NCBI RefSeq assembly: GCF_029962835.1
Contig: NC_080577.1
Location: 29,742,501-29,806,500 of the forward strand
DNA length: 64,000 bases
Source of the DNA: Magnolia sinica
Taxonomy: Eukaryota; Streptophyta; Magnoliopsida; Magnoliales; Magnoliaceae
Reading direction: 5' to 3'
The notes under the pieces were generated by a model. It saw nothing but the letters and a program-made list of their open reading frames with translations, made no database searches and was not told where the DNA came from. The position numbers and the translations under genes were made by a program. This document shows, piece by piece, positions 17,833 to 54,771 of this stretch (its first letter is position 1; the number at the start of each line of letters is the position of its first letter).

Positions 17833-17839
17833 TGGAAGT

Positions 17840-21180: not shown

Positions 21181-21334
21181 CCACCAGCATATAATATATA
21201 ATATATGTACACACACACGTACACACCCACACACGCATGCACATGATCACACCCACCGTCCAGGACGGTGGGGTTAGAATACAAACGTCACAGTGGGCTC
21301 CAACGTCCAGGCGGACGGTGGAAATAAAACACAT

Positions 21335-21620
21335 GTCACTGTGGGCTCCATGTGGGGCCCACCATAATGTTTATACTCCATCCAACCCGTTGGTAAGGTC
21401 AAGTAGACCTAGATGAAGGGTGAAAACAAATTTCACCCTGATCCAAAACTTCTGTGGACCCAAAAAGGGTTTCAAAGGTAGAGGTTCAATCTCACTGTTT
21501 CATACAGTGTGGGCCACCTGAGTCTTGGATGGACCTAAAATTTAGAGGGTGGTCCACTAACCTTAGGGCCCACCATATGAACGGATTAGATGACAAATAA
21601 ACATCAAGGTGGGGCCCACG
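21335..21620. mobile_element. Fold-back repeat fixed inside family A LTR
   Basis: It is bounded by TGTGGGGCCCACCATAATG and CATCAAGGTGGGGCCCAC. The centre has ATCCAAAACTTCTGTGG and CTGTTTCATACAGTGTGGG, typical of the family. The same copy occurs at the same place in the LTR at 43960-44235, so the LTR captured it before those copies spread. Confidence 0.7.
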
Positions 21621-23348
21621 GCTAGAGTCGTGGGTGCTGTCCGCCTGCCCGTCCGCCCGGGCTCTGGTGCGCAGGCAGCGCCTGCTGCCTTTCTGACACA
21701 GCAACAACAGCTGCTGTGAAGTTATTATTATTATTTTTTTATTTCGAGTCTTTCCTTGGTTTTCACAGGTGGGGTTCAAATCTAGACAATCCACTCCGTC
21801 CAATGGCCCTTCATGGCTCCAGACAAGCAAAACAAGCCCAATATTGGGCCTATTTCGGTGTATAGAAACAACAGGGGATAATTCAATGGTAAACCCGCTG
21901 TTTGCTATGCCATGGCCCGCCTGAAAGTCTGATTGGTCCCATCTTTCGGCTCAACGCCTAAAACGAGCTTGGGAAAGGAATGGACGGCGTGGATTTAATA
22001 CATACATCAAAGTGGGGCCTACATGAGTGGGCCACCCCAAAGCTTGGGAACGAGCTGATATTTGCGTTTTTCCCTTGTCCAGCGTCCAGAGATGCTGGAC
22101 TACTTGGTCTGTTACAAGCATGGAGGTGGGCCCTGCTTAGGTGGGCCACCAAATGGAGTATGGTGTGGGTACAATACACACAAAGTGGGCCCCACTTGTA
22201 GATGGTTTGGATGGAATACATACCTTGTGGTGGGGTCCATTCAAGTGGGCCACACAACCTCATTATCATCACACATAAAAAAAATAGAGAGGGAGAGAGA
22301 GATAAAGAGTGGGACACGCGTGATGGAGGGAACCCCGCACTATGGGCCCTCCCTTGCACTAAATCATACATAAAGTGGGTCCCATTACACATAGGCCCAT
22401 TAAATCAAAATCCAACAGTGGAGATCCCTTCTCTACTAAATTAGACGGTCTAGATGATCCTAAGTATGCAAGGAAAATAAACATCATGATGGGGTCCATG
22501 GATAATGGCCCCATCATGGAATGATCATGATGATCCAAGTGGGCCATTGGCCACATCTTAGGGTCCAAAGTGAGATCCAAACCATTGATCGGTTGGCCTC
22601 ACTTGGCCCATCTTAAAAATATTAAAACTACCCTATCAAAGCACCCACCGCTTGATCTTCTTGCTCCCTTGGCTTCCTTAGCTCCTTGTGCTTCTCTTTG
22701 ATGGAGTAAGATGAGAAATGGATGGCTAGGATGAGAGATCTAGGGATGGAAAGGTGGGCCACACTTGTAGCTTGGAAGAGTTGGAGAGCTCATACGTATG
22801 GGTTTTTTTTTTTGCTTTGGGAGAGTTTGAAAATGAGAGAGACACTTGTAAAGGGAGAGAGAGAGGGGGAGTGATGGGTGATGAAGCGATGGATGTGATG
22901 GTGATGCATGTAAGAGGCTTTTTTGACTTTTGTGGCTAATGGTGTAAGAAAAGTATGGCTTGTGTAAGAACTTTTTGACTTTGAGGCTTACTTGGGAAAG
23001 GGTGAAAGGTGATGTGTACTTGACATGATGGGATTGATGAGTTGATTGATTAATGTGACATCTCGTAGAGATTCTCTCGGGTTTTGCAACGTGCGGCGTT
23101 TTCCTCGCACTGAACGCTTGCCCACATCTCCCAACCACGGTATCGCCTTGGCGCGCAAGTCGCGGCATCAGAACCGCGGCGACGACGCGGTCGCTAAGGT
23201 ACAAGTCCTGGGTTGAGTCGACTCGGGTTGACAGCATAAGAATCAGGGTCGCGCGCAAATACCGGTTAAGGGTCGAAGGTTGCCGGAATTCGACCGAGAA
23301 GACCGCGGAAGTCTATGGAATGGTACGGTCTAGGATACGGGGCTTACA

Positions 23349-28100: not shown

Positions 28101-31100
28101 GCAATTGCATTTCTCATAAAGATACAGCATATTCATGTCTTAAGTAGGGATTATACTTCATTCAGCTCAAATGAAATTGTGTGTCAGAGAGGTTTGCTAA
28201 GCCCATACGAGTGTATAAGGCAGCCCCTCTACATGCCACTAGATGTGCTAGCACGGCACATGGGTGCAGGATCTAACCCATCCATCAAGTAGGTCCCTAT
28301 GTTCAGATGATCTGGCCTAAAAGTCAGGCTGGTCCACTCATCAGCAGGCTGCGATATCATAACATTATGATGGCATAGAAAAACTTGTCCAAGTTCATTT
28401 AGCTGTCCATCTGTTTAATAAACTCTGGCCTACCTGATAAGTAGATAGGTAATACATTTGGGCCAGGGCTACACGCCTAACCTGGATAGCTTGGATCTCA
28501 TACTAGTTTGCCATGCTGGCAGACATGATAGCACACAGATGGTCTGCCACATACCTACGTCCTGGCTTAGCAAAACTCATCAAGACTCGGGAGATCCTAT
28601 TTGCACCTGTCCCTCGCGATACACAAGCCCTTTTTCCAACATTTGCTAATACGTTGTACAAAGTTGTACTGCTGTATTGCCAAAGGTTGAAAGAAAGGTG
28701 TCTCTGAAAAAGGAAGGGTTTATCAATTCCCTATACCTACATTGGAGTAGGGTGATGGAAGTACACCACAACGACAATGCGCAAGGTATCTCCTACAGGA
28801 CATGTGGCAACTACCTTAAATTTGAACTGCCCAAATAGGGGGTCCTACTGTAGACGGATTGCGACCCAAAAATATCCTAGCCAGTTTGGTGGACATCTAA
28901 CAATGGTAAAAAAATATAGTATACGGTCAAAACTCAACAAACAAATGTCCATGATCAGAGGTCAGGATTGTCGAATCAATCTAATTTTGGAGAAATGACT
29001 GACCTACACAGTGAGTTCCGTGATTTGGGTGTTTCGGATGAGGTAAATGCAAATGTTTTAAAACCCGGACCAGACACCAAGCCGTTTTGTGGGCCTTTTG
29101 GTCCGATTGCAGGTACAACAGGTGCAAGTCTTTCCTGCCCTGGACATTTACTAGAAGAGACTGAATTAGATGGAAAAGAAAAGAAAATAAAAACGACGCG
29201 TCCGGAATGTTCAATGGTGCATCTGGTATCTGAGGAAGGTTGTGGCTTTGGGCTCATACAGTCCATAAGTTTTATCAATGACAGTAAGGGCCACCATTGA
29301 ACAGACTTTGGTGACCTGGCCTGTTTTGTGTCCATTTCTGGTCCAAATCAGTCTAAACATTTGGTACGTTCCAGGTGTTAAAACACTGAGCACATGCCAC
29401 ATGTACAGTATGCAACTCCCAGCACCATAGTTGTAGCGTAAAACCCGTTACCAGTGATGAGTAGGGCAACTCGGGTTCAGATCAACCCGAACCCGATTCA
29501 CCTATGGTTGTCAAGGTCCTTGGGTCGGGTTCGGGTTGGAAAATGCCAACCCAATTTGAAATAGGGTTGGGTTCGGGATGAGCAAATTCAGGTCAGGTTT
29601 TGCCGGCTTGGGAATAAGCACACGTATTTGGTTTCAGTTGGGTCAGGTAGAGCATAGAGGAATTTGGGTTGGGTTTGAGTTGGGTACCTTGGGTTGGATT
29701 TCAGGTTGGGTTGCGTGGGCTGGGTCCCCTTAAGGTTGGGTCAGGCCCGGTTTGACCCTCAACCTGATCCAACCTGCCCAAGTTGGTGATGAAACTTCTT
29801 TCCCTGTGTTCAAATGTGGAGCTAACACTGACAGCACAGCTACAATTTCTTTCCATTTTAAAGTTTTGAGATTGGATTGTGCGAGGCAAAAGAAAATGCT
29901 GCTGAATTTGGGTTAGATGCATACCTTTTCTTTTGCTCTTGGTGTACCCGACTGAGACAATGCAACCAAAGGCGGTACAGCTCCTTCTTGCAGCACCAGA
30001 CTACAAAACTTGTGGCTATTAATACAGAGCTGCAACAAGGCAGAGGCGGCATTTTCCTTCCCCCTTTGAGAACCCGACTCGACAATCTCAACTAGTAATG
30101 GAATTCCACCTTCTCGAGTAATAGCTGCACGTCCTTCCGGAATTGTTGCCAGATTCGCCAAAAGGGCGACGGCCTTATCAGCCATCCCTGTGTCAGGGTC
30201 CATCAGCTCGACCAGGTACTTGACAGCTCCAGCTTGGACAATGCGTGCCTTATTCTCGTGAAAGATTGATAGATTGAATAACGCTGTAGCGGCGTCTTTC
30301 TTTCCTCTAAGGGTGCCATTCCCTAGAAGGTTGACCAAGGCCTTAACTGCACCAGATCGACCAATCTTTATCTTGTACTCTTCCAATACAGATAGGCTGA
30401 ACAATGTGGCAGCAGAGTTCTCTTTAGCCTCTGCATTTCCTGACTTCAAAACTTGGATGAGTGGCTCAATTGCTCCAGCTTCCGCAATAAAGGTCTTGTT
30501 GTCATCATTGATCGATAGGTTTAGAAGGGCTGTAACAGCATTCTCTTGGGTTGTCTTTATCATCGAGTTCAACAATGCAACCAGCGGTGCGATGGCCCCA
30601 CACCTTGCAATAATGATGCGGTTTTCCATGTTGTGCTTTGTGAGCCGACGGAGCTCAGCTGCTGCCGCAGTGTGCACTTCACTTGATCGACTTCTTAGAT
30701 CCTCAACCAGTTTCTCGACATGTGAAGAAGTCGTTAAATCGTCACTGTCTAAGAATGGAGAAGAGCGAGTTCTGTGGTGTGTCCCGTTCCCATTTTCAGT
30801 CCGTGCTCTTGGAAGTGAGCTGCAAAATTGATTACCTGATAGCCATGGAGAAAAACCCAAATCTTTATTCGAAGGAGATGAAGCTGGACACTCTGATATC
30901 ACTTCTCCCAACACCTCACTTATTTCATCGCATCTAGTCGATAGCTTTGAAACTTCAGTAAAAACAGCTGCAGGGGCATGTTCAATGCTAGAAACAACAC
31001 TTGAAGTGGATTCGCTTCGGCTATGACTATATGACTGTTCAAGGGACATATTACATTTTGAAGACGCATTATCAGATGGTATTTGATGACAGGTGATGTA

Positions 31101-34100
31101 GCAAACCTTTTTATCTACCAAGTTGGAGTCTTCCACACCACTTTTTGTCATTTGCCTCTCAGACCCATTTCCAACTTCAAGGGAGGAATGTGAGGTGGAA
31201 TTGCTATGCAAAGAACCGCGGAAACTGTCTACATGGGCATTGTCCTCAGGAGCACAGTTAGATAAGGAACGGGATGAAATATTGTTTGAAATATTGGTCG
31301 ACTCAAGAGAATTGAAAGACTTTATGTTGTTGTCTTCGCACCAATTTGCGATCAACGCCTTCACGGTGTAGTTCGGAATTAGATTGATGTGAGTGAGAGT
31401 TTGACGGGTCTTGGGACAGATTTTCAGCCCTTGATCAAGCCACCTTTGGATGAAAGCCCTCTCGTATGTCTGTCCTGAGGCCACGATCACAGGATCCATC
31501 ATCAGTTCCAGTGACAAGGGGCACCGGAAATATGAAGGAATGGGTATCCCATTTATCGCCTTGAACTGTTCGAGTTTAACCATGCAATCACGCATATGCA
31601 CGACAAGATCGATAACCTGATCTATGTATTCGACATCTCCTTTATTCTTCTTCAGCTCAGCCTTCAATCTTTTCTTTTCCAGTGCCATGCTTTCTGCTAG
31701 CAACTCTTGATTTGATGTCAGGCTGAGTGACTCCACAATCTTTATTAGAAGGTCAGCACTAGGCATGAGATTGTCTCTTTGATCTCTTAGAGCTTCTTCT
31801 ATGAGCTCGGGCGTTCTCTCCTGCTCTGCACATTGAAGTTCCTGCATACAGTGCTGAAGCAATTGATCTTGGAATCAGCTCTATGCTCCACATAATCAAG
31901 CAATGGGAAAGGAACTGTTATTTCGATGCAGCCAATCTAATACAGAAATTTAACTTTACAAGATGCCGTTTGGGACACAGTAATAGGTTCCTGTTTTCAA
32001 TACAAAGTTTGCGTTTGGAATTTACTTCAAGAACATGGGGCAGGCATCCTGCATTTGTGCAAATTACCATTTTTGTTCGTTTCAGGTACTAAAGTGAAAT
32101 GGATGAAGAACTATTTCAGGGCAGCAAAGTGAGAGAACTGATAATATTACATTCGGGTTTCCATTTTCCATTTTGCCTCGAAATGTAGACAAAGTTCAAA
32201 ATAAAGTCACACCACCAAGTCACCAACATATTCAACTGGATGTCGATTTTGCAGGTTCTTCCAAAGGTTACCAGAGTATACACTATTAATATATTTTTTA
32301 TGTATTCCATTGGTTTAATGGAAATGATATTTCACTATGTTTTCAGTATAAGAATGATACCAGCCAATGGTATATAATGATGGTACATGCACCCAATGTT
32401 TTCCATATTGTTATTGCATAATGTATCACACCTTTGGGATATGGGCGCATATCGGTTATCACATGGGATATATCGGTTGTATCGCGTAATGTTGTTGGGA
32501 AACATGGGGAAACATTAGGAAATTGGTTGAATTTTTTAATGGAACTTCAGGGATTGTTAAAGGAGACATCAATACACACTAAGAAATCAAAACATCACAG
32601 AAAACAAGTGCACATAACAGATTTCCTTTGTGTGGGGTCGTAATCCATGCACTGTCTAACTGAACTGATGCAAGTATATTCAAAGTCTATTCACATAATT
32701 TATAAATGTAAGAAGTCATATATGGAAACACACGCGATACATTCAAAAGCAAAAGAAGAAAAAGAAAACATGAAATATACCTATGAATAATATATGTGGT
32801 TGTGGCTTAGACCCACATAGAGCTGCGCAGTGGCTAAAAACCATCATCTCCATCTCAACGGGGCTGGGCATAGTACCGTTGCTCCACAAACCAACAAAAC
32901 CATGCCCAGGTCATAGTAGAATGATGCTAGTAAAGAAACTCTCTAACATAACACTAGCACTCATCCTCTCCAATTTGAGAAATTTTCAAATTTTCTCATA
33001 TTTTCTGCAAATTGGATGATCTTTCCTCCCAAACCCCAAAATTAGAGTGTATGTGATGATGATTTCATCAAACACTCATGACTACACTAAAATGGAGGTC
33101 AATTGATTGTTTGATTGAAGTAGAATTTCAAAAAAATATTTTTTTAACTTTTTTTTTTTAAAATCTCAAATTATCAGGAATCACTAGATCAGGTTACATA
33201 CATGTTTAATTTTGTGTTTGAATACAAAAATTGTAACTGATTTGCAAGAAATTGAGAAATTTCAATTGTTCTCAACTTCTCGCAATTCAGACCATCTCCC
33301 CCAAATCTCAAAATCAAAGCTCTAAATCCATGATTTTTCATGCAAAACATGAAGAGCTGTGGATTTGTAACCATTGATACTGATTTAATATGATTTACAG
33401 TAAAAGAAAAAGAAAACAGATTAAAAATAAAAAATGCTCACCAAATCGAACAAACGGGATATATTGGCACTACCTATGCATTTCGTATCGCACAGGTGAG
33501 ATACAAGATATATCGTGGGATGTATCAGCCGATATCATCGATAATGAAAACATTGCACGCATCAAAGCATATGTGTAATAATTCCCTGAAATAAATTACA
33601 TTTTTCTACATCTTATGCATTACATATATTACCCCAGAAGTATGCAAATGTCATCACATTGGCTTACCGGGTCCTTATGCCTCACACCTCATGTCCATGT
33701 CCACACCAAAACACATATTTCTCTAAGTTACAATAGAGAACAGAACTTACAAGCCTTTTAATAGATGTAAAGTTGAAGAAGGTGATGGCTCATCTAGTTA
33801 AGAGCCAATTAAAACAACATAAAATATTGAGATGGACGAAAGAAATCCATGAGCTCTTCTTTAGTATTACTGACAGGGTCCTGGTCATCAGATGCATAGT
33901 TTGTGGGAGGTGCCATTGCATACATGCGGGATCCATGTTCAGTGATCCAAAACATTCATTTGATGCACTTCAATTTTGATAGGGGATGGCCAATAAATCT
34001 CCCAAATTGAAAGGTCTTAACCATTCAATATTGATTCCTCCATTGGATAATGAAAGCTACTGTATTTTTTCTCAAATCTCATATCCATCTAGTTTCAGGC

Positions 34101-34819
34101 CATCAGATCGATGTGTTGAAATATTCTGATCTAGAAGACTTCCAGCACATCATACATCCATGGAAGACCCCAGAAGATCTACTGTTGGGATCACCAAACC
34201 GCTGGACATGTATGAATCCCACATGTTAGCAAACTATAGGTCTGCTGATGAGCAGGACCCCATAATTCCTCCTCCTCAGTACCTGAACATAAGCTAAATG
34301 CGAAGTAAAATGAGATGACTGTAGCAATCCATTCAATATATGACAGATCTCCATGGAAGAGCTTTGGACCTTCATCACCAACGGCTCACTCTCTAGAACC
34401 TGGAAAATTATCACACACACAAATTAAAAAAATTAAAAAATCAAGACATCATGAGACAATCATTATACCAGGAGACAAAACTGCAAGATTCCAGATGAAG
34501 GGGTCCATTTAAAGAACAATAAGAAGCTTAAAATGACACTCACACTGCATATCTTGCTCATCTTTGGACACCAATTCTCCATGAATTCTCTAGCCTCGTT
34601 AACGGCCATATCCAATTCCTCAAATTCTTTCAGCAGTAGTTCATCTGAAGGTATGCTAGAACCAACGACTTCATCAAGAACAGGCTTCAAATTCCTCAAT
34701 AGAGAAACCATATCTCGGTAGTTTTTTTGAAGTGGCGTGGTTTTCATGGTCTTGCAGGCAACTAAGTGAATAAATCGAGAAATGCTGTTAACTAGGCCTT
34801 CTATAGTCTTTGTGTCCAT
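25061..34819 (-). CDS. PUB4: U-box/ARM-repeat E3 ubiquitin ligase, PUB4-like (4 coding exons)
   Basis: The product is an E3 ubiquitin ligase: the U-box recruits the E2 enzyme and the ARM repeats bind targets. Exons on the minus strand are 34819-34544 (92 codons), 34399-34283 (39 codons), 31853-29925 (643 codons) and 25126-25061 (21 codons plus TGA), all phase 0, giving about 795 residues. Residues 1 to about 235 form the UND-type N-terminal helical region. The U-box is at about 236-310 (IPSYFRCPLSLELMMDPVIV, TYERAFIQRWL). A Ser-rich linker follows, then ARM repeats from about 509 to the end (ENAVTALLNLSINDDNKTF, NSAATLFSLSVLEEYKI, DAATALFNLS, LLANLATIPEGRAAI). The length is close to the roughly 830 residues of Arabidopsis PUB4. 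That protein has reported roles in receptor-kinase signalling, meristem and tapetum development. No stops or frameshifts were seen. A PUB2-type name is the alternative. Confidence 0.93.
25221..27600. mobile_element. TIR-bounded DNA element in intron, split by a LINE
   Basis: The ends are 24-nt inverted repeats matching at 23 positions: 25221-25244 (CCTGTTTGGTTGCCACTTAA...) and 27577-27600 (...AAGTGGCACCCAAACAGG). The CCTGTTTGG end is common in hAT-like non-autonomous elements. Inside are GGGTTGGGT/ACCCAACCC-type repeats (25310-25780, 27490-27560) and a LINE. No clear 8-bp duplication was found. Confidence 0.6.
25783..27488 (-). mobile_element. 5'-truncated L1-type LINE in PUB4-like intron
   Basis: The minus strand carries part of ORF2. 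Reverse-transcriptase pieces are SGLRQGDPLSP (about 27450-27485), KVNSDKSELLGVG and YLGLPLCIGKP. They are followed by VWRFGVEEGSLWRKVVSRKY (26669-26929), GIRFWEDVWLGG, and a zf-RVT-type end CLLCYQDEELVAHLFLHCDF (26092-26298). An A-tail (T run at 25811-25827 on plus) marks the 3' end. Flanking 14-bp direct repeats AAATCAGGTTGCAG (25769-25782) and AAATCAGGTTGGAG (27489-27502) are target-site duplications with one mismatch. The usual FADD site is lost by a small deletion. It is dead, and in the same direction as the host gene. Confidence 0.88.
27602..29454. other. Intronic sequence of the PUB4-like gene
   Basis: This is the middle of the last intron: non-coding, with GGGCCC/TGGTCCAC fragments of old dispersed repeats at about 27940-28330. 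No supportable gene was seen. The short open frames at 28968-29402 have no recognised product. Confidence 0.5.
29455..29795. repeat. GGGTTGGGT/CGGGTTCGGGTT-rich repeat in intron
   Basis: Irregular iterations of GGGTTGGGTC and CGGGTTCGGGTTGG close with ACCCTCAACCTGATCCAACC, so it can fold back on itself. It resembles the inside of the TIR element at 25221-27600. Confidence 0.6.
29925..31853 (-). CDS. PUB4: PUB4-like gene, main exon (U-box, linker, ARM repeats)
   Basis: The acceptor is GATCAATTGCTTCAG then CACTGTATGCAG at 31853. The donor is AAAGAAAAG then GTATGCATC at 29925/29924. It has 643 codons without a stop. The open frame continues three codons past each splice site, which is why the open frame alone begins with a false Met. 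It holds the whole U-box and nearly all of the ARM array. Confidence 0.95.
31854..34282. other. PUB4-like intron 2 (2.4 kb)
   Basis: This is non-coding, AT-rich sequence between good GT-AG sites. It contains a possible MITE at about 32385-33567. No gene was seen. Confidence 0.6.
32385..33567. mobile_element. Possible MITE with CAATGTTTTC inverted ends
   Basis: The left end ATGCACCCAATGTTTTCCAT and the right end, on the other strand, ATGCGTGCAATGTTTTCAT are similar. Inside each end are TATCG/CGATA-rich stretches (32440-32500, 33470-33545), also in inverted order. No target-site duplication was found. Confidence 0.35.
34283..34399 (-). CDS. PUB4: PUB4-like gene, coding exon 2 (39 codons)
   Basis: The acceptor is ATAATTTTCCAG then GTTCTAGAG. 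The donor is TATGTTCAG then GTACTGAGG. It reads VLESEPLVMKVQSSSMEICH and ends in LAYVQ, part of the UND region. It is phase 0 at both ends. Confidence 0.9.
34544..34819 (-). CDS. PUB4: PUB4-like gene, first coding exon (92 codons)
   Basis: ATG is at 34817-34819 (MDTKTIEGLVNSISRF). The donor is ATATGCAGT then GTGAGTGTC at 34543. The start is preceded by ATCTAAACAG/GTCTG, a good acceptor five bases upstream of ATG, so the 5' leader is spliced. It is the only Met that fits the family's N-terminus. Confidence 0.9.
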
Positions 34820-36324
34820 CAGACCTGTTTAGATAGAATCAAAGCATGTCAGGCGTGATGGGGACTACCCAAATAGCTTCATTTAAGGACTTATGGTTCT
34901 AGAATGCAAAGAATATTACATCAAAACTCCCTAAACTAGTTCCAGTGGTGCTGGTACCACCACAAGCTTACAGTGATACCAAGCAGTGTGGGGCCCACGT
35001 GGTGTACGTATCACATCCAACCTGTCGATCAGATGCGTCCATTCAGGTTAACCCCATGGACTGAAAATCAGCTCAATCTGAAACTCATGTAGGACACAAC
35101 ACGGGGAACAAGGTGGGAGAGGAGGCCTACTCTTGATTCTCACTGTGGCCCACATGAGTTGCAGAACAGCCTGATTTTTGTCCTAACACTTCATCCATGG
35201 CAGATGAAGTCTGGCCAGCCTGGATTCTGTATACACAGTATGATGCGTCCCCATGCCAAATCAAGGGTTAGCATCCCCTATCAACTTGTCCCCTTTGCTG
35301 TGGCGGACCTAAGTTTCTGTTTGGGCTGAATTGGGTCTGAGGCAGCATATCAGATGGACAGGTCAGACTTTGTGAATATATCATGTGGACCGTGCTTCTT
35401 TCCAGTACACCATAGCTAATGGTGGTACTGGTACCACCTGAGCACACCCCTTCTTTTAAGGGATGAATTATGAGGTCTCCAACTTCCAACAATATAAAGA
35501 ACTCCTAGACACACAGTTGCAAATTGTATTGGTCGTGATGAGTGTTATACATGAAATATTGATGAAGGATATCACAAATATGCTGTCCTAAAGATCAGCA
35601 ACATCAAGAACTGAGAATATCTAATGCCTCTCAGCTTGCGTTTCAAGTAATTCTCCATCCGCTTTGGCTCAGAGTCAGAGTTCGAAAGAAACGAAAAAGA
35701 ATAGAAAGAGTTCTTCACTGAGAAAACTACATTTGGTATTTCTACAAATCACATTGCCATCAAGTATGCTACAAGCTCCAACTTGACCCAAAACACAAGA
35801 TTTAATGGAAATCAGTGACTGTATCTGAAAAGTCTAGTTGTGATGGAAAAAACAGATAGTTTCAGCATAAGACCATAATAACTGCTCCATAAGACCATGA
35901 TTTCTTGATATCAAGCAATCAAACGAAGGGAGCCGATTACCTGCCTCTGGAGGCACAACATTTTCATGCCTCCAGATTGTGAACCACACACATGGCGCAT
36001 GTGTATGATGATCCAAACCAGGCAACACCTGCTCTCATCTGTTGATTAGCCCCTAAACAAATGTTGCTATGATTAGACTATCTTAACCATCAAACAATAG
36101 GCCTTTCCTCACATAATAAGAAGCATTGCTGACTCTTGTCTTTTGGTGTCCATTTGTATGCTACCAAGTAAAGGGCTAAATTTGTGATTTTTGGTCCATG
36201 GCCCATTGACCATTAAAAATATGAAACACAAGGTTTTGATGTCATCCATTTGCGCAGGATCTGCTCCCTCAAATGAAACAGGCTTGTCTGGTTGTATTGT
36301 TTACTGCCACTAATTAGACCCAAG

Positions 36325-40200: not shown

Positions 40201-40600
40201 CACTTGAAAATGTACACGTGTCACATATTTGTCTCCAAGTAAACGTCCAAATCATGCAAGCCAACGACGGGTTATAAGACTAAAATGTTAATTGAATTAT
40301 TTTAATCTTCGGTATATGGACACTTGTTTGTTTACTTTTGACCGTTGATTATTTTTATGTTTGCTATTAGATATCATACAAGCGTCCAATTAAGCAATAA
40401 TTTCTGTATTTTGTTTCTTTTTTCTTTTTTTTAATAAATTTCTAAGGTGATAGTCACCGTATGGGAAGTTTCATTTGAATGAGACCTGCCACATCAGCAA
40501 CTTTTGCATGCCTGTGTATCATCTATCATAACATGTCCAGAGCATCAAAGTTTTTGTCTTTCCACCCTGAAATAGAAATTGGCACCAACCATAAAACTGG

Positions 40601-41120
40601 AAAAGCTAAAAAGGCTTTAGACAGCCTAACAAATGGGAAGTATTTGATACTCTGCCAAAGTTTGGCACTTCATAGTCAGTCACTCAGAAATTGTACATGG
40701 GACGCCCATTGATACGAAATGATACGACACCCAAGCCTACGTGCAATGATTGTAAATTATTTTACCTGCATTCTTATATTAGTGGCCAAAATATAATTAC
40801 GATACTTTTATATTACTCTAATGTCAAGTCATTATTCAAGTACATTAAGATAGCTGTTTGAAATGCTAATAAGGCTTTAGACAGCCTAACAAATGGGAAG
40901 TATTTGATACTCTGCCAAGTATGACACTTCATACCTAGTCACTCATAAATTGTACATGGGACGCCCATTAACATGAAATGAAATGACACCCAACCCTACG
41001 CACAATGATTGTAAATTATTTTACCTGCATTTTATATTAGTGGTCAAAATATAATTATAGTACTTTTATATTACTTTAATGTCAAGTCATTATCCAAGTA
41101 CATTAATATAGTTGTTTGAA
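40601..41120. repeat. Tandem duplication, two 260-bp units
   Basis: AAGGCTTTAGACAGCC occurs at 40611 and 40871, and the whole following 250 bp matches with about 10% differences (TGGGACGCCCATT, GATTGTAAATTATTTTACC, CAAGTACATTAA). It is non-coding. The direct, gapless arrangement suggests one unequal-exchange or slippage event. Confidence 0.9.
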
Positions 41121-41305: not shown

Positions 41306-43389
41306 ATAATTGTTGTGGGAAAAATGGACCGACAGGTGAAGGTAGGTCAAGTTGAGACCCAGAACGCCACAATGCGTAAAAGAGGATGAGAAACCCGATT
41401 GCCCAATTAAAAAGGAAGGTTGGCACGACCAAGGTTGAAATGAAGCTCGGCACGATCTGGAATAAACCTTCCGAGGGATAACCCAATGAGCTTATTAGGA
41501 CTCATAAATAAGTTAAAGGCTACAAAAATTAAACATCACAAAGATGTTCTTCCTAATTAAAATGATAGGTCGACAGGTGGGGATGAGCTTATCCAACCTT
41601 ATAGACTATTACATCTATGGTCCGACCTTATCCAAAGGCCGGTCAAATCCACCCCGACTCTCAACTGGCGTCCAAACTTATCCATGTCTATGATCTGACC
41701 TTATCCAAGAGAGTGGTCCAAAGTTCTCTCTAAGGATCACGGAGGTTAATTCACAATTAGCTCGGTGTAACACCCCGAATTTTGAAGGTCAAGCAAATGC
41801 TCAACTCCTGAGATTCTAAGCATCACTTATGCTTTGCAGAAGCCGGTTTCTCGGTTACTTCTACATTAAACAATTAAGCACGTATAGGATTATACTAAAC
41901 AATGTATCATTCTCTGTAATAAACACAATTAAAGTAGAAAATTAAATTGAAATGCATATAGTATGATTATTGTCACGCCCCAAACTCGGAAACCGGGCTC
42001 ACAAAATTTTCGATCGCCGAATCCGGCGCCGACAGCCTCCGTAGAACCCCATTCTCGGCTCCCAGCGCCCATTCGCCAGGTTCCGATCCTGGGATGCTAC
42101 GAGGAGGATTTTTAACATCAGTTTGATTCGTAATAAGCATAACCAAAGGCATAACCCACAACAACAACCAAAAACTCCATCACATTTCCACTATGATCAA
42201 AAACTTTACAAGTACAATGAGCATAAAGGGAAATACAATGAAGATGAACAAGAACTCCAAAATGATCAGCCACGCGCCCAAGCCTCAGCGCTGCTGCGAT
42301 CCAACGTCACCTGCACGCAACGGTCGTGCATAAGCTTATAGAAAGCTTAGAGGGTGGTGAAAGTGTATGCTCAAGGTGGTAATGCAGTTATGCAGTATCA
42401 GAGTAATGCGGAACATGCTGATGAATGCCAAGAATACCATTAGCCGTACCAAGGCCATGCGGTGCAAAGAATGATGTCGGCCATACCAAGGCCACGCAAT
42501 GCGAAATGTAACTCAAGCATACAAATCTTCATCTAAGTCCACATATCGATACAGCTCAAAATCTGGAATATCACCGGGGTCTAGTACACTCCAAGCCAGA
42601 TTGTCACCCCATCGCGAGCAATAAGGTGAGTGAAAAAGACCTCATTATCCGCCAGCCAATATCAGGCTCAGCTCGTCAATAGCGGACCCATTCCTCAAGC
42701 TGGTCAGACTTAGCCTAGCATTGCCCCCTACTCTCGGGCGGGTAAGGCCACACCCCCTTCCAACCGACCACGACACAGTGGAAAGCGCAACCGTCTGGTA
42801 ATCGGCACTCGTCGCTCATGCACCCACTCGGTCTAGACGTTGGAGCAACCTCTTGGTACCATAAGGGTTTAGGGACTTTCACCCAGGGATATCTATAGCA
42901 CCCCATGTAGAACAATATTTTCGGTATCCAATCCTGCTAACCACGATACGTCTGTGGAGGCTACGGCCCTGATGTCGCTAAGGCGTACAGTAACCATATC
43001 ACACAATGCGAATGCATGAATCACACTATCCAGTCATACAGCAATCCTGCGCGTATCGTGTGCTCATGTAGGGCAACACCCCCTATCCGGGAGCCCCTAA
43101 ACAATCTACCCGAAGGCATATGCTATGATCAGTCACTCCTCATATCAAGCATACATATGATGCGTTTGATCGTGAATCATGGAACTATACTAAGTAGGCC
43201 ATATGATAATGGATGCAGTTCATAACGAAGATGGGCTTAGACAACCTACACATTACATGTACGGGCCTATAATGAGCCCTAGGGTGAGTCATAATGTAGA
43301 CATTTAACCAACACTATACTTGCAATGTAGACGTCAAACCAACATTACTCCCAAAGCATAGCCCGTCGTAAGTATTATTGCATAAACCA

Positions 43390-43790
43390 TGATGGGATTA
43401 CACATTGCAATGGACCTTAGGTACATCCCCTTGGGCCTTCAATATATCAAATGGGCCGTATCACATGGGCCTTACATTTATCAAATGGGCTGCATTAATG
43501 GACCTCACCAACGGACCTTATGTACATTGCAATGGGCCATAGCCCATGGGCCTTACAATACATCACAATGGGCTTAATCACATGGGCCTTATGTGTATCA
43601 AATGGGCCACACCAATTGGGCCCCATAAGTACATCAAATGGGCCTCAACCCATAGGCCTCAATACATTTTAATGGGCCTTAACCCATGGGCCCCTAATAC
43701 ATCAAATGGGCCTCGACCCATGGGCCTTACATATATATCAAAGAGAGCCTTAACCATGGGCCACAAGTAAACTGAGGTGGGCCTCCTACC
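43390..43790. repeat. ATGGGCC minisatellite inside LTR A3
   Basis: About 13 units of roughly 30 bp with CATCAAATGGGCC and CCCATGGGCCTTAC, matching 20745-21180. A (TA)n tract at 43798-43850 and an ACAC tract follow. Confidence 0.85.
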
Positions 43791-43959
43791 ACCAGTGTAT
43801 TATATATAATATAATATATAATATTATATATATATATAAATATATATACACACACACGTACACACCCACACACGCACGCACATGAACACAAATATCATAG
43901 TGGGCTCCACCGTCCAGGCGGACGGTGGAAATGAAACACATAAATCGCTGTGGGCTCCA

Positions 43960-44235
43960 CATGGGGCCCACCATAAAGTTTGCTTTCCATCCAACCTGTT
44001 GAGAAGGTCACGCAGACCTGGATTGAAGTGAAAAAAACAAATTTCATATCGATCCTAAACTTCTGTGGACCCAAAAGGGGTTTTAATGGTAGAGGTTCAA
44101 TCCCACTGTTTCCTACGGTGTGGGCCACCTGAGCGCTGTATGGAGCTAAAATTTGGAGGGGGCCCACTGCTGGGGGTGGCCTACCTCGTGAACGGGTTGG
44201 ATGGCAAATAAACATCAAGGTGGGGCCCACGGCTA
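43960..44235. mobile_element. Fold-back repeat inside LTR A3
   Basis: It runs from CATGGGGCCCACCATAAAG to CATCAAGGTGGGGCCCAC, the same copy as 21335-21620 in the other LTR, so it was inherited with the LTR. Confidence 0.7.
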
Positions 44236-47200
44236 GAGCCGTGACCGCTGCCCAGTCCGCCCGCCCGCCCGCCCGGGCGCTGGTGCGCAGGCAGCGCCTG
44301 CTGCCGTTCTGACACAGCAGCGGCTGCTGCTCATGCATATATTTTTTTTTTAAATGCATTTTCTTGTGGTTTTTCAGGTGTGCGGCCCGCATCATGTAAA
44401 TCCATCCCAGCCATTGGTCTCTGCAGACTACGACAAGTCCATCGAGCCCAATATTGGACATGTTCTGGCGCGTAAGAAATTTTAAGCACATTTGAAAGGT
44501 GAAAATCACCGTTTTTAATACTATGGCCCATCAGATACTCGGATCAACCTCATTTCTCGGCTCAACGCCTAAAATAGTCTGAAGAAAAGGTTGGACGGCT
44601 TGGATTGAACACATGCATCAAGGTGGGGCCTGAACAAGTGGTCCACCCAAAAAGCTTGTGAAGCAAGCTAATATTTTTGTTTCCCTTACACGTCCAGCGT
44701 CCCTGGACGCTGGACAGTGTTGCCTAGCACTTTAAGGTGGGCCCTGTTCAGGTGGGCCACCAAATGATGGATGATGGTCACAACATATATGAAAAGTGGA
44801 CCCCCACCTACAAATGGCTTGGGATCAAATACATGCTTCATGATGGGGTCCATTCAAGTGGGCTACACAACCTCATTATCATGATCTTATAAAAGGAAAT
44901 GAAAAAGAGCGGGAGAGAGAGAGATAGAGAGTGATGGGTGATGGAGTGATGGATGTGGTGGTGATGGGTGTAAGAGGCTTTTTTTGACTTTTGTGGCTAA
45001 TGATGTAAGAGAAGGTATGGGCTTGTAAGATCTTTTTGACTTTGGGGCTTGCTTGGGAAAGGGTGAAAGGTGATGTGTACTTAACATGATGGGATTGATG
45101 GGTTGATTGATTGATGTGACATCTCGTAGAGATTCTCTCAGGTTTTGCAACGTGCGGTGTTTTCCTCACACCGAACGCCATCCCACATCTCCTGACCACG
45201 GTATCGCCTCGACGCGCGAGTCGCGGCATCGGAACCGCGGTGACGGCGCGGTCGCTAAGGTACAAGTCCTAGGTTGAGTCGACTCGGGTTGACGGCATGA
45301 GAATCAGGGTCGCGCGTAAATACCGGTTAAGGGTCGAAGGTTGCCGGAATTCGACCGGAAAGACCGCGGAAGCCTATGGAACGGTACGATTTAGGATACG
45401 GGGCTTACAATTATACAGAATATGGGTCCAGCTGGGTCCAATATATAATTCCAAAATCAAGAAAAATGTGGAAAGGTGGCATCTAACTAAGTCCGATCAC
45501 TCAACTATCCCTGTCGAGAAGTGCGCAGCCTACATCGGCCCATCAAAAAGCTGGAAGTAAGAGAACTCCTCCATGCCCACCTGGTCCAATGCATCGGCCT
45601 CGATAGTCCATGCATCTACATTAGTGTCTAGTTGGTGTTTTAAAACACCATCCCAGAGTGGGAGTGAGTGATCAATTCAGTGGTTCCATAAAGCATTGAT
45701 TACACATGTTATCAAGTCAACCAATACAGTAATGATAAGACAATGTAAAACAATCACTTCCTAATTACTCTTCTTAATTCAAAAATAGAATTTATGAAAT
45801 AATGCATGCTCTCACCAATCAACACTCCCTCAATACGCAACTCCACCTGGTTCGCAAATGCCAACGCTTCCTCAACATGCGACTTCAACGCATGTTTCGC
45901 CACATTCTAAACTAATGCAATACGGCGAATGATCATGTTAACCGAGTGGTTAATTATGCCTATTCATTCAGCAGTTTGGGGAAGCTAGGATACCTCTCAT
46001 TTAGTCATCGGTCTCAACTGAATCACTAAACGCGGGATGACCACAACGGTCCTACACTTGTAATCCCTAATCAGTTTGGGTTCGTCACTCCCAGCTGAAT
46101 ACATACGAAAGACAAATCATAAAAGTAATGCTCACGATTACTACAAGGATGCTCATCACCCCAGCATAGGCCGACAATACGGATACAGTGTCCCATACCG
46201 CCATGTCTGGCTTACGAGTCTTGAGGTTCGCAATGGTAATGATAAATAATAGACATTTGCAATGGGTAAGGGGGTGTCCCATATTCAAACAGTTGTAACC
46301 ATACATGGTGAACATATATAGGGTTAGCCGGTTCTTTGGACAATTTCAGTTGATACAGGCGAACACTGGCACAACCGGCATAAAGTGTATAAGCACCCCA
46401 TGTGGCCCAGTCACTGTCGGTCGTCCATGTTCGACCCAGAACAATCGAACGTGTCTGGGGTGGCCAACCTAATTTGGTTAACCCATATCCGAAAACTTGT
46501 CGACTAACCAGACTACTCTTGTAGTCCTACTTCTTAACCTAATCAAGTTAACAAGCATTAAAGATGAATGAATTCACATTCAATCATTAAAATCAATAAT
46601 TTACTCATTCAAGCATTTCATTGAACACGTATGTGTCGCTATACCACAAATTGCAATCAATTGAACATAAATTGAAATAAATGTAAGTTATCATGCACAT
46701 ACTACATTAGCAATTATAAATCATTAACTGAAGTAGTAACATTGATAAATCGCAACTTAAGCACTTATGGTCCGCACCTCTTGCTAGTACATCCGACTCG
46801 GACTTGTTTATAGGGTTATGCTTCCAAGAAAGGATCGTTAACTACCTACATGAGTACACGGGTTTGTAAGGGTTGAGCGAAATCCATTTGAAAACCTACA
46901 TCTACAAGGAAGGCCCGAAATCTTACCCTTAATTATTGTTGGAGGAATTATGACAACGAAAAAAGTAGAAACTAGGCTTGTGGGCCAAAAGGAATAAAGG
47001 AAATCTCTTCTAGCAACCACTCTGTAACATCCTGAATTTTCATTATTTTAGATTTCTAAAACAAATTTTGATTTTTTGATTTTTGATTTTTGTAATTAAC
47101 TTATACTATCACTTACTGACCATTATCACACAATATTAGTATATACACAGGTGGATCCAGTAAAGAACTACACAAGTCCGATTAATCAACCGTATGAAGC

Positions 47201-48071
47201 CAACGAATCCGCCATATCACTTGAACATCAAGTTTAGCCCCATGATCTACTCACATAGGGCCCAAAATCTAACCGACCCATTGCTAACTAATCAAGACAA
47301 TCATAACTAAATTAAAGATCTAACCGAAACCGAGTCAGATAAGACCCAAATCTTGACTAATAGACCAAATCAACTCTGTTACTCTTTTAGCCTAAAACTG
47401 ACGGTTTAGAGTGATCATGACCAAATCTCCACTTTCACTAGATATAAATAGGTCATACTATGAACATAGTTAATCCAAACCCTAATCATTGCCTACGAGA
47501 ATCTCAATACCTAATTCATTCCAGAAATGCTCCAATTTTTCGAACAAGCTCTAGACCGCTCGTTGGTGGGCCACTAGTTCTAAAACTATAGAATAATGTC
47601 CGTCTTACTAGGCTAGACATCCATCGCGGGAGTCGGACCTGGGTACTGTCCAGAACCGCTCAACTTGAGCCAAAGGACGAGTGCATGAGAAGTGCAAATA
47701 CCCTAAAGGAAGAAGCTGAAATTTAAGTGAATTGGGTCGTCCACTCTTATGCAAAGTTAAGGATTTTAGACCGTCAGTTTACGACCAAACTTTACACGTA
47801 GAGTAAAGATATTTTCCTGCTCATATCCGTATAGCCGCGGCCCCGATCGACCATCGGTGACCGTTGAACAGACTTCTAATCATATTTGTCGATCGGCGCA
47901 TCCAAATGGCGGGTCGATCATGTCCATACGTAGATCATCATTAGGGCTAACTATCCTATGGTGTATATTTTCATGTACACCCCATAGTGGGCCAAAGAGG
48001 TTAGAAAGACTCTCTCATAAGGCTAGTATAGTAAAAACATAGCCCTTGGGGCCATTTACACCAAATCTGGC

Positions 48072-48082
48072 CCTATATAAGG
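48072..48082 (+). promoter_or_regulatory. TATA box of LTR C2
   Basis: CTATATAAGGG lies about 50 nt before the GA-rich leader. The matching TATAAAAGGGG in LTR C3 (about 49886-49896) sits in the same context. Confidence 0.5.
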
Positions 48083-48844
48083 GCTTCATTTGGGTACCCC
48101 TCTCTTCATACGAATTTACCCTAGAAAAAAGAAAGAGAGAGAGAGAGAAAGAGAAGAAAAAAAAGATGAGAATGAGAGAAGGGAGAGAAAGGAGAAAAAG
48201 AATAAGGGGGAGAGGGTGAGCCGTAGTTGAAGATGGGGCCCAAGGGAGGTAGAGTCTTGCAACTCCTTCCCTCTTCCTCAAGAAATCCCTCACCCACAAC
48301 CACAAGAACAACTCTCCACCGATTGGATAGGTAATCACTCTTCTTATTTAGAAACCTATTATGTTAAGCTAGGCCTTGCATGTATTCTAACATGCAAGTA
48401 CGTTTGACTTAGGATCTCTACAAATCGACCCGCGAGTTCGGCAACCCTAGGTCGATTCTTCAAGCTCTCAATGATCCGTAAGTGCGAACTATTATTCTTA
48501 GGTGGCCTAGCACCAATTTTAATATGGATTTAATGATTATGAATGTTTGGGTGATGTGCTTGAGAAGTCTAGAGAGAACCTAGCCAAGACCCTACACGAT
48601 AGGTCCTCCCAAATTCTATAAAATGATTGAGTGTTGTTTCTTTGTTCTTCAACATGATTGGGCTTGATTTTGGTGTGGCATGTTCATCTCATATACGATT
48701 CTAGTATAACCTTCCTTGTGACATGTATGATAGTATAGATCATTGTTGTATGTTTGTGCTAGCATTCATCCTTGTTGTACGTTTGTGCCATAAATTATGT
48801 ATAGCTCTTGATCTCTTCGTTAACCCCACACAACACACATACAC

Positions 48845-51800
48845 TGTAACATCCTGGATTTTCACTATTTTGGATTTCTAAAAATCCTTGAAATTTTTTT
48901 TATTAATTAACTTATAATATCACTTAAATGACCATTAGCACTCAATATTAGTCTATACAGGGGTGGTACCAATAAAGAACCGCACAAGTCCGATTAATCC
49001 ACCATAGGAAGCCACCGAATCCGCCCGATCACTTGAACATCAGGTGTAGCCCCATGATTTACTCACATAGGACCTAAATCTAACCGACCTATCGCTAACT
49101 AATCATGACAATCATGACTAAATTAAAGATCTAACCATGGCCAAGTCAAATAAGGCTCGGATCTTGACTAATAGACCAAATCAAACTCATTACTCTTTTA
49201 GCCTAAAACCGACGGTTTAGAGTAATCATACTAAATCTCCACTTTCACTAGTTATAAATAGGTCACACTATGAACGTAGTTAATCCAAACCCTAATCATT
49301 GTCCACGAGAAATCTCATTACCAAATTCATTGTAAAAATGCCCCGATTTTCTGAACAAGCTCTAAACCGCTTGTTAGTGGGCTACTAGTTCCAAATATAT
49401 AGAATAATGTCCATCTCACTGGGCTTGATGTTCATCGTGAGACATCTAGTCGAAATCATGAGTCAGATCGCTTAACTTGGACTTACAAGGTTAGTGCATG
49501 AGTTTTACGAATACTCTTGAAACTAACCAAGAACTTAAGTCACTTATCTGCGTTCGGTCTTTGCCTAAGTTGAGGATTTCGGACTGTCGGTTTACAACCA
49601 AACTTCACATGTAAAATAAGAATATTTCCCTACTCGTATCCGTATAGCCGTGGCTCCGATCGACCATCGATGACCGTTGAACAGACTTCTAATCTTATCC
49701 GTCGATCGGTGCATCCAAATGGCGGGTCGATCATGTCTATACGTAGATCATCATTAGGGCTAACTATCCTACGGTGTATATCGATATGTACGCCCCATAG
49801 TGGGCCCGAGAGGCTAGAAAAATCTTTCCATAGGGCTAGTATAATAAAAACCCAACACTTTGGGTCATTTGAACCAGATCTGACATTATAAAAGGGGCTT
49901 CTTTTAAGCACCCCTCTCCCCATACGAATTTGCCCTAGAGAAAGGAAAGAGAGAAGAGAGAAAAGGGAGAAAGAAGAAAGGAAGAAGAGAGGAAGGGAGA
50001 GTGAAGAAGGGAGAGAAAGTGGGTCATAGTTGAAGTGAGGCCCAAGGAAGTTCCATCTTGCAAACCTCTCCCTCTTCTTCAAGGAAACCTTCCACCACAA
50101 CTGCAAGAACTGCTTTCGTTGATTATATAGGTAAATCCCTCACCCCTTTTTCTTGAAACCCTTGTGTGTGAGAGGATTTGCATGAGGTTCTAACATGCAA
50201 GAGTATTGTCTTAGAATTCCGGCTGATCCACACCGAGTTCGGTGCTTCTAGGTCGTTTCCTAAGACCTCAACGCTCCGAAGGTTCGGACTTAGGTGGCCT
50301 AGCACCAATTGTAGTATGAGTCTAATGATTTTGTTTGTTTGGATGATGCATTTGGAAAATCTAGGAAAAAATCTAGGAATTTTTGGGTTGTTTGAAATTG
50401 TATGGAATTATATGTCATGTTGATTTTCTCATATGATGTTGTTCTTACCTCTCACATGATTGGGTACAAATTGATGATTACATGTTAATGTCTTGTTTGA
50501 TTTCTCATATGATATTGCCTTATAGTATGTATGATTTATTGATTCTCAAGTATTTGGTTCTATGAGATGTAGGAAGTGCTTAACTTCCTCACTAACCCAC
50601 ATAACTCACATGCACCTTTGTTCAAGATATTGTTAGCTTCGCTTGCTAGGAGAATTTGAATTGTATGTTGAGAAGTATGAGAACATGACGATATTTATGC
50701 TAGTTGATAACCCTGTTAGTTGGCATGTTATGCATCACCATCTAAACCCTTGGGTTGGTTAGGAAGAGGAGGAGAGCGAAGGTGGTCTCCTTAGTAGGAT
50801 TGTCCTGAGGTTAAACCCATGAATTTAGACAGGTGCGTGTGGGCGACAGTAGTTAGACTACATGGGTCGCTTGTACCCGATGTCGTCTATCATGAGCTTG
50901 CCTGAACTCGTGCGATCTAGCTTATTTACTGACCAACCTTGTTTGTTAACCCTATTGCTCACATATGTATGGAACATGAAACACCCTACAACCATTGTAG
51001 CCCATTGATAACCAAATTGAAACCAATCCACCGCCTCGTGAGCCGGGCATGGTGGAATGAGACACTGTGTCCGAGCTGTCTGCCTACGCCGGGGTGACGC
51101 GCCTCCCCGTAGTGACCGCGAACGATCACTTTTCCTCAGCACTCCTCATGTGCTTGGAGTCGGGGATGGGGAACCCGACGGGATCAAGGATCGCGGGGTC
51201 TTGGCCTCACACGTTGGGGGGTCTTGGCCTCGCAACCAGTTCAGGGTATTGATACGTGGGGTGTATTAGTTTCTCCAACCTGCTGGATGAATGGACTTAA
51301 CTAAGAACTCGGCTAACACAATCACCTTGCATCGCACTAGTTAGGGTGGCGATTCGGCAGTCGAGGTCGCTTTGAGGGAGTGTTGGTCATGCGCGATCGT
51401 TAGATGGAGTCGCTCGAGGGAATGTTGTGGCGAGGTCATGTATCATATCATCCGTCATTCATGCGCGTTAATAAGATTAGTTAGGTATTTATGAATGATT
51501 ACTTTTCATTAAATTCATAATATAACCGATGCTTGTTACAACTTAAGACTAATAGCACCCACTGAGTTGATCACTCATTCCCACTCTAGGACGGTGTTTT
51601 AAAACACCAACCTGACTCTCTCGTAGATGCAGGTGATGCAGAGTACGAGGAGCCTGACGGTGCGAGTCTTAACGAGGATGATGAGCTGTCTTTCTTTTAG
51701 CTGATGGCAGCTCTTCATCGGCTTGATAGGCAGGATTTGGATCGTTGAGCAGTGGGCTCAACTCTATTCTTTTTGGATATATCATTCTTTTTTGTGGTTT

Positions 51801-52024
51801 TTGTTAGGCAACACCTTGTGCGACCCATTTATATTTTTGGGCCTATATATATACTAGATCTCTTTCATTTCAGTAGACTTGTGTGGTTATGCTTCATGTT
51901 CCAAGAAATTCCATGCTGCACATTTAAACTTGATTAAATGTAAATTAATAAACATTAGCATAAGTGATACCTGTGAACTTGGGAGTCGAGTGTATACACG
52001 ACCTCCAATTTTCAGGGTGTTACA
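48845..52024 (+). mobile_element. LTR C3 nested in LTR C2
   Basis: TGTAACATCCTGGATTTTC (48845) to TTTTCAGGGTGTTACA (52024), 3180 bp, is collinear with C2 throughout. Examples are ATAAATAGGTCACACTATGA, the GA-rich leader at 49935-50010, AAAACACCAACCTGACTC, and the end block. It splits C2 near base 1822 of that LTR. The flanks TACAC and ATTTA are not a duplication, unlike the other layers. A TATA box is at about 49886 (TATAAAAGGGG). Confidence 0.88.
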
Positions 52025-54771
52025 ATTTATTTCATATTATTGTTAGTAGTTGCAATTGTAGAAAAATCTGAATTTATATGTTTGATGTATGAGTGCATGA
52101 CATTACTTGTGTTAGATGATGAATTCTGATTCGATGAAGTGTTATTGAATACCATCAAATCCCTGGGTTGGTCAAAAAACTAAGGTGGGAGAAGATGGTC
52201 CCATTGTAGGAGCATCCTGCGGCTAATCCAGTGAATTTGGGTGGATGCGAATGGGTAACAGTAGTTGGACTACATGGGTCGCTTGTACTTGATGTCGTCT
52301 GTCACGTACTCGCCTGAACTCACACGGTCTAGTTCGCTTATTGACCAACCATATTTGTTAGCCATGTCTGCTCATGCTTGTATGGAACCTGGAATGCCCT
52401 TCAACCACTTAAGCCTATTAGTAAGCATTTGAAACAAATTCACTAACTCGAGAGTCGGGCATGGTGGAACGGGACATTGTGTCTGAGCTATCGGCCTACG
52501 CTTGGATGACGAGCCTCCCCGTAGTGACCGTGAGCGATCTCTCTTCTCAGCACTCCCCATGTGCTTGAAATCGGAGATGGGGAACCCGATGGGATCAATG
52601 ATCACGGGGTCCTAGCCTTGCAACCAATTGAGGGCAATGATATGTGGGGTGTACCGGTTTCCCCAATCTGCTGGATGAACAGAATTAATTAAAAACTCGG
52701 CTAATACAATCACGATCACATCGCAATAGTTAGGTTAGCGACTCGGTAGTTGAGGTCGCAATGAGAGAGTGTTGGTCATGCGCGATTGTTAGACGAAGTC
52801 GCTGGAGGGAGTGTTGTTGTGAGGTCATGCATCATATCATAATACATGCATATGCTTTAACAAAACTATTTAGGGATTTGTGAATGTATGCCTTTCCTTA
52901 AATTCATCACATAATTGATGCTTGTTGTAACTTAAGGCTAATAGTAACCACTGAGTTAACTACTCACTTCCACTCTGGGACGGTGTTTTAAAACACCAAC
53001 CAGACCCTTTACTAGATGCAGGTGAGGCGGAGCTCGACGAGCCAAACGAGGTTAACATAAATAGGGAAGATGAGTTTTCCTACGTCCAGCTTATGGGTGG
53101 ATCACCGTAGACTGTGCGAGTTGATTATGAGTTATTGAGTAGGGATTTAGCACACCATTTCTTTTGAGATTTCTTATATAAATTTTGTCGAGTGACGTCT
53201 TGTGCGACCCGCTTGATATTCTTATAGACTTGTATTTCTTAGCCACATTTATTTCAATAGATTAGTTATGGTTATGGTTTATATTCCAACCGATTCATTT
53301 ATTGCTCATTTAAACTGATTTATGTACAAATCACTATAATTGTGATATAAGCGACACCCAATAATTTGGAGGCCGAGTTCCTACACGGCCCCTGAAAACC
53401 TGGGGTGTTACACACTCCTCCGTTCTCTCTCCTCTTTTCTCTCCTCCTTTCTCTTTCTCCCAAGCTAGGGTTGTTAAAATCGGATGGAAAGAAATGGGTG
53501 CAATTTGGGAGGTATTTATAGCTCCAGATGATACACAAATGTCCCTAGGGCAACTTCATTTGTCATATATGCCCTATGGGGGGTCATTTCTAACTATTGG
53601 GGCCCCCAGGAGGGCCTACAGGCTCATCTACACCATGGGGTAAGTCTCTTACCAATGGAGCTATATTAGGACACAACTTTGGCATAATCGGATGCACAGA
53701 TTGGCCATAGGGAGCCTGAATAAGATAAATGGTCAGCGATGTTCGATTGGGGTCGTGGTTATACGGATACGGGCAGGGAAATATCTTTGACTCATATCTT
53801 GAATTTGGTCTTAAACCGACGGTCCGAAATTCTTAACTTCGCGAAAGAGTATATAACTTAAATCACTTAAATTTCAGGTTCTTCCATAGGATATTTGCAC
53901 TTCTCATGCACCCGCCCTTCGGCTCAAGTTGAGTGATCCCAGACACTATCTAGGTTCGGCTCTTGCAATGGAAGTTGAGCCCACTAAGATGGGCATTATT
54001 CTATAGTTTCGAAACTAGTGGCCCACTAATGAGCTGTCCAGAGCTCGTTTGGAAAATCAAAGCATTTTTAAAATGAATTAAGTGGCAAGATTTCTTGTGC
54101 GTAATGATTAAGATTTGGATTAATTATGTTCATATTGTGGACTATTCGCAATTAGTAAAAATGATGATTCAGTCATAATTACTTTAAACCGTTGGTTCAT
54201 AGGATATATTGATAATTGGATCACTTTGGTTTATTAAATTGCGATCCGACCCCTAGTTGTCTCGGTTTTGGGTAGATCTTTAATTTAGTTGTGGTCGTCT
54301 TGATTAGTCAGTGATAGGTCAGCTAGATTTAGATCATATATAAACAAATCATGCAGGTAGACTTGAAATTTAAGTGATTGGGCAGATTTGTTGGCTTTCT
54401 ATAGTTAATTTATCGAATTCATGCGGTTCTTTACTGGTATCATCCATGTATAGGCTCACTTCGAGCGTCAAGGGCCAATAAGCGACAACATAAGCTAGTC
54501 ATATTGAAGGTTTTCAAAGGTTTTTTTTTTTTTTTTAAATCCGAAACAGTGAAAATCCTGGACGTTACACTCGGGATCCCGAGATCCCTGGAGACCCCCC
54601 AAATGTTAGGGACCCGAATTCATCTACAACACGGATAATATCTCTACCCTTAAACTACTATTAGACTTAGCTTCCTAACTATGACATCGGAGGGTCCCTT
54701 GCTTTAGCCAGAGTCTTGCAGGTACTCGAAGGTCAAAAAGTGGTGGATCAGATTTTTGCATCAACAATAAT

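Follow-up and report, generated by a model that had tools for sequence, protein, structure and literature searches.

How does a continuous stretch of some 13.5 kb come to consist of long terminal repeats (LTRs) and almost nothing else? The question is raised by positions 41311-54766 of a 64,000-nucleotide window of the Magnolia sinica genome (NCBI RefSeq assembly GCF_029962835.1, contig NC_080577.1, positions 29,742,501 to 29,806,500 of the forward strand; "the window" is this whole stretch). There, 13,441 of 13,456 bp belong to five solo LTRs, which represent three families (A, C and D) and are nested in one another: within D lies C1, on the minus strand, and C1 contains both A3 and C2, the latter in turn holding C3. 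The remaining 15 bp are the second copies of the target-site duplications (TSDs) of C1, A3 and C2. We consider it very probable that this stack consists of solo LTRs nested in five layers, their interiors having been lost by recombination between LTRs.

Layers and boundaries of the stack

A sequence-only reading, made from the letters of the window without database searches, had proposed five nested solo LTRs of about 650, 2965, 3439, 3210 and 3180 bp, four of them with perfect 5-bp TSDs. The boundaries it gave were borne out by exact ends and TSDs, and are listed here piece by piece.

41306-41310, no strand: left TSD of D (ATAAT)
41311-41765, plus strand: D solo LTR, left piece; its last bases, CTCGG, are the left TSD copy of C1
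41766-41965, minus strand: C1 solo LTR, 3′ piece (C1c)
41966-41970, no strand: left TSD copy of A3 (ATTAT)
41971-45409, minus strand: A3 solo LTR, oriented as the A LTR at 19379-23348
45410-47022, minus strand: C1 solo LTR, middle piece (C1b), with one copy each of ATTAT and CACTC
47023-48844, plus strand: C2 solo LTR, left piece
48845-52024, plus strand: C3 solo LTR, unbroken, without a TSD, its target complete
52025-53412, plus strand: C2 solo LTR, right piece
53413-53417, no strand: right TSD copy of C2 (CACTC)
53418-54569, minus strand: C1 solo LTR, 5′ piece (C1a)
54570-54574, no strand: right TSD copy of C1 (CTCGG)
54575-54766, plus strand: D solo LTR, right piece
54767-54771, no strand: right TSD of D (ATAAT)

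With the nested inserts included, D spans 41311-54766, C1 41766-54569 (minus strand), A3 41971-45409, C2 47023-53412 and C3 48845-52024. Once their pieces are rejoined, the layers measure 647 (D), 2965 (C1), 3439 (A3), 3210 (C2) and 3180 bp (C3), which reproduces the proposed lengths. Each of the five runs from TG to CA, and the four perfect TSDs were confirmed as ATAAT (D), CTCGG (C1), ATTAT (A3) and CACTC (C2). Because two random 5-mers from the region agree with a probability of only 0.00137, chance does not account for four perfect TSDs at ends that were defined independently (∼3e-12 for all four, if independent); taken singly, the TSD of D is the weakest, as it adjoins an AT-rich, ATAAT-like run. 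D, C1, A3 and C2 each show the marks of a solo LTR, namely a single LTR with TG and CA ends and a TSD, and C3 shows all of these except the TSD; none of the five has an interior. A tblastn search with 120 reverse transcriptase (RT) proteins gave no match starting within 41306-54771 at E ≤ 1e-4, and the 12-mer of the initiator-Met (iMet) primer-binding site (PBS) was not found within the stack at up to two mismatches. The LTR share of the stack and the lack of RT matches are in line with the earlier claim that about 13.5 kb is solely LTR sequence with no internal genes kept. As a check, the same reading had suggested aligning C1, C2 and C3 with one another and A3 with the A LTR at 19379-23348. 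The five pieces of C1 and C2 align to C3 in the correct order and orientation, each beating 10 shuffles (C1c only modestly, scoring 116 where the best shuffle reached 88), and A3 matches the A LTR in two blocks of 83.6% and 90.7% identity.

The history that we propose would begin with the entry of a D element into older DNA. A C element (C1) would then have entered the LTR of D, an A element (A3) and a second C element (C2) would have entered the C1 LTR, and a third C element (C3) would have entered C2. Recombination between the two LTRs of each element would later have removed the interior and left a single LTR, a process whose occurrence and timing we infer. The nesting and the four TSDs, as well as the LTR nature of the three families and the four closed sites described below, are read directly from the DNA.

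Nesting orders the insertions D, C1, C2 and C3, which form the longest path of four layers, and places A3 after C1; it does not say which of A3 and C2 came first or when each layer became solo. The proposal that the nesting fixes the insertion order therefore stands except for A3 relative to C2. A relative clock for at least three families had also been proposed, and of this the three families and the partial order hold, but divergence gives no ranking of C2 ahead of C3: private substitutions counted in MAFFT alignments of two unbroken blocks were 561 for C1, 177 for C2 and 216 for C3. Moreover, part of the divergence between members of a family predates their insertion. Two other measures were discarded. 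Counts of private changes made by aligning every piece to C3 (C1 437, C2 306, C3 109) seemingly follow the nesting but are biased towards C3, and CpG observed/expected ratios (D 0.64, C1 0.72, A3 0.74, C2 0.73, C3 0.75) agree with it in direction, but the steps are too small and the families differ.

LTR identity and closed sites in relatives

The window alone shows the LTR nature of family A only, by two features outside the stack.

19379-23348, minus strand: A-family LTR adjoining a PBS (TTGGTATCAGAGC) and gag-pol remnants
15252-19208, minus strand: broken gag, protease, RT, RNase H and integrase frames of the same A element

We take TTGGTATCAGAGC to be the plant initiator-Met primer-binding site, and the domain order (protease, RT, RNase H, integrase) identifies family A as Ty3/gypsy. 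For the other two families we used relatives, that is, other copies in the Magnolia sinica genome. At five of 13 D loci (L010, L011, L014, L015 and L023) the LTR is immediately followed by a PBS-like motif, gtttggcgccgtctatggga or a variant, and at three of 13 (L009, L013 and L017) it is immediately preceded by a motif resembling a polypurine tract (PPT), gggggcttac or a near variant. In two same-strand pairs, L009/L010 and L013/L014, one LTR bears the PPT and its partner the PBS; the two members are separated by 12.6 and 13.7 kb, respectively, and are 84.6% and 86.5% identical over their longest block. The PBS-like motif of D is presumably akin to the PBS of plant Tat/Ogre-type elements. As for family C, the C1-like copy L024 has an LTR end TGTTACA followed by the PBS ggTTGGTATCAGAGC, in the C2-like copy L057 a PBS follows the end of the LTR, and in C2-like L062 a PBS directly adjoins the LTR end and a purine run immediately precedes the next LTR. 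A PPT precedes the C LTR at L062, L063 and L067, and the last of these is a C 3′ LTR, with RT matches ahead of the purine run and LTR. Because copies adjoin PBS or PPT motifs, families A, C and D are all real LTRs, as tested per family rather than per subfamily and with C3-like copies left out. A C-family motif was not found in viral contigs; Rfam gave no matches and ARAGORN no tRNAs. We note that C1 (at 45634), C3 (at 51593) and C2 (at 52982) have all retained the 16-bp perfect palindrome GGTGTTTTAAAACACC, although their aligned blocks differ by 19-45%.

When the pieces of each interrupted layer were searched separately and their adjacency was then read, they rejoined at all four inner insertions. 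For C1-in-D, the D pieces run together at all 10 readable loci (13 searched), the left piece being matched as far as CTCGG, and in nine of the 10 the sequence continues with GATC, as D does; an apparent gap of 12-13 bp at this closed site looks by eye like a D-specific deletion just past the junction. For A3-in-C1, C1b and C1c are adjacent at 13 of 14 C1-like loci (10 directly and 3 after extrapolating 1-3 bases), the exception, L031, having an insertion or deletion (indel); L019 and L020 among these 14 duplicate each other. The C2 pieces show a gap of 0 at 17 of 19 C2-like loci, with −2 in L048 and +3 in L054, and for C2-in-C1 the end of C1a and the start of C1b are adjacent in L035 after extrapolating six bases. 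The rejoined pieces thus line up with uninterrupted relatives, which comes close to the end-to-end alignment with intact family LTRs on which the sequence-only reading had staked its case.

Several points weigh against the nest of solo LTRs. The C2-in-C1 site is base-exact in one only (L035) of the four relatives in which it could be judged; the extrapolated ends are off by 14 bases in L020, 12 in L033 and −11 in L027, offsets that are compatible with indels without being base-exact. In a window-only junction test with 200 shuffles per side, C3-in-C2 scored above all shuffles (97.1 vs maxima of 77.3 and 88.1), but A3-in-C1 was not distinct from them (54.6 vs 66.5 and 64.2) and C2-in-C1 beat the left-flank shuffles only (70.1 vs 72.6 and 56.3), so that these two junctions are settled by the relatives rather than by the window. 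C3 has no TSD, whereas all 15 distinct C1- and C2-like copies examined keep four or five of the five bases. Finally, the evidence base is the assembled sequence of one species.

That the stack is an artefact of assembly has to be weighed as well, since the assembly used comprises 127 contigs and the evidence is assembled sequence rather than reads; the published assembly rests on Oxford Nanopore Technologies, Illumina and Hi-C data (PMC10999834). The same source gives a published genome size of 1.84 Gb for M. sinica, with 48.9% LTR elements. Misassembly would, however, have to place TSDs and TG and CA ends exactly at the joints and concur to the base with closed sites in relatives, and C9 holds an independent nest (L041, C9:68428400-68436400), a C LTR interrupted by an A LTR whose TGTTA TSD is perfect. 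We therefore regard an artefact as scarcely credible. The A LTR on C9 spans 4.6 kb, so it may be interrupted itself. As a second A-in-C case, this locus indicates that such nests recur.

The insertion of C3 without a target-site duplication

The sole odd detail of the stack lies at C3, whose flanks, TACAC and ATTTA, agree at none of five positions. In relatives, the target site reads approximately ...ACACATACAC|ATTTATTTC..., the same as C2 on the two sides of C3, so C3 sits within C2 with no duplication and no target base lost. The TSD sample for comparison consisted of PBS-less copies that could be followed to both ends, seven C1-like (L019/L020 counted once) and eight C2-like, and by choice held no C3-like copies; all five bases are kept in nine of these and four of five in six. 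Relative to these C1- and C2-like copies, C3 is unusual.

The missing TSD is what would speak for C3 being the joint of two different C elements, brought about by recombination between elements rather than by insertion into C2. The outer ends of C2, however, share a perfect CACTC, and both C2 pieces are therefore one insertion, which in turn makes an exchange between two different elements an unlikely cause of the state of C3. In addition, the base-exact adjacency of the C2 pieces in 17 of 19 relatives is not expected from exchange between elements at different sites. We judge such a joint to be highly improbable.

If C3 was inserted into C2, as we prefer, one 5-bp TSD copy must have been either lost exactly or never made. 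The missing TSD may best be read as an exact loss of one copy, either because the integration gaps were repaired asymmetrically or because a small deletion followed. It is possible, and we suggest it only tentatively, that C3 entered by an integration or repair route that produced no TSD and cost no target base, for example with one of the two 5-nt gaps trimmed rather than filled, and then became solo. Passages of two papers (PMC7251063, PMC1940013) put solo LTRs without TSDs on record, and the layers resemble the solo LTRs described there in being single TSD-flanked LTRs with no interior, with TSD-less variants known. C3 differs in that it lacks a TSD although its target is complete, so exchange between elements at different sites fails to explain it. 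This joint, with zero TSD and zero loss, is a small point for students of integration repair.

Solo formation in family C and comparison with known nests

Solo LTRs form by unequal recombination between LTRs, according to the relevant passages of PMC7251063 and PMC1940013, and the sequence-only reading had seen in the stack a sign of strong, repeated recombinational removal at this spot. Such a hotspot, with unusually strong LTR-LTR recombination stripping each insert, would accord with the solo state of all five layers and with the persistence of a gag-pol-bearing A element 18-27 kb away. The state of other C copies argues against it. The 14 C1-like loci represent 13 distinct copies, of which seven are solo, one has a PBS and five are unclassified even with longer sequence of the last six. 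The 19 C2-like loci comprise eight solos, two with a PBS (L046, L057), two with a PPT (L044, L047) and seven unclassified, and L044, L046 and L047 belong to one C18 run. The solo share is thus 7/8 of classified C1-like copies and 8/12 of C2-like loci, or 8/10 with the C18 run as one, and combined it is 15/20 classified loci, or 15/18 with that run counted once. These counts are of family C alone, leaving out L062-L067 as well as families A and D, and the solo fraction is rough, since copies were selected for resembling short stretches of C1 or C2 and a good number of them are unclassified.

Because the sampled C copies are mostly solo, five solos in five are unremarkable (P ∼0.24 from 15/20 or ∼0.40 from 15/18). 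A published regression of the solo to full-length ratio in 15 plants has an intercept of 2.69 and is not significant; with its x units assumed to be Mb, this non-significant regression gives P = 0.21 to 0.39. Longer LTRs reportedly yield solos more often, as a passage of PMC1940013 has it, and the stack was itself chosen for its striking look. The claim of strong, repeated removal at this spot was thus not sustained, solos being the commonest state among classified C copies, and we hold a hotspot to be very unlikely.

A pair of C LTRs on C13, at first read as a full element, was rejected as such, being a duplicated segment that bears a solo LTR. There are two pairs of duplicated segments, L019/L020 and L064/L065 (C13 and C15), with the same C LTR and the same flanks within each pair; L064/L065 is a duplicated solo, with the TSD CTTAG read on L064. 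At C18:25819800-25838600 (L062, L063), a C2-like run has the arrangement LTR-interior-LTR-interior-LTR, the third LTR being partly matched. Its interiors of ∼2.35 and 2.7 kb have no RT match, and it is probably a non-autonomous subfamily. The arrangement fits what is expected from unequal LTR recombination in the family, at a locus other than the stack.

Nests of LTR elements have reportedly been treated in older barley and maize papers. In maize, nested LTR elements are described that include a solo LTR nested in another element, and a search of open-licence papers on solo LTRs nested in solo LTRs yielded only this paper as relevant (PMC1560396), the one other paper returned being unrelated to judge by its title. 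As described there, the magnolia stack is like the maize nests in that young lies in old, the order is read from the nesting, solos occur in nests and insertion takes place within the same family; unlike them, it is solo in all five layers, with a longest path of four. The stack is a new, well-resolved example of a known phenomenon and no new process. Documenting to the base how five elements were inserted and five removed at one magnoliid site, it offers a clean but ordinary illustration of plant genome growth and shrinkage, and is usable as a calibration example for nest-unwinding software.

Elsewhere in the window, a diverged RT remnant lies at 6639-7170 on the plus strand, with 30-35% identity to RT proteins in its best matches. 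A host gene of the U-box/ARM type (PUB3-like) has its coding parts at 29913-31874 and 34463-34828 (minus strand), ∼6.5-11 kb from the stack; the U-box/ARM protein encoded in the window matches one of Magnolia sinica with 100% identity across 99% of its length. Just outside the stack, at 40600-41120, there is a direct tandem duplication of 260 bp with 90% identity.

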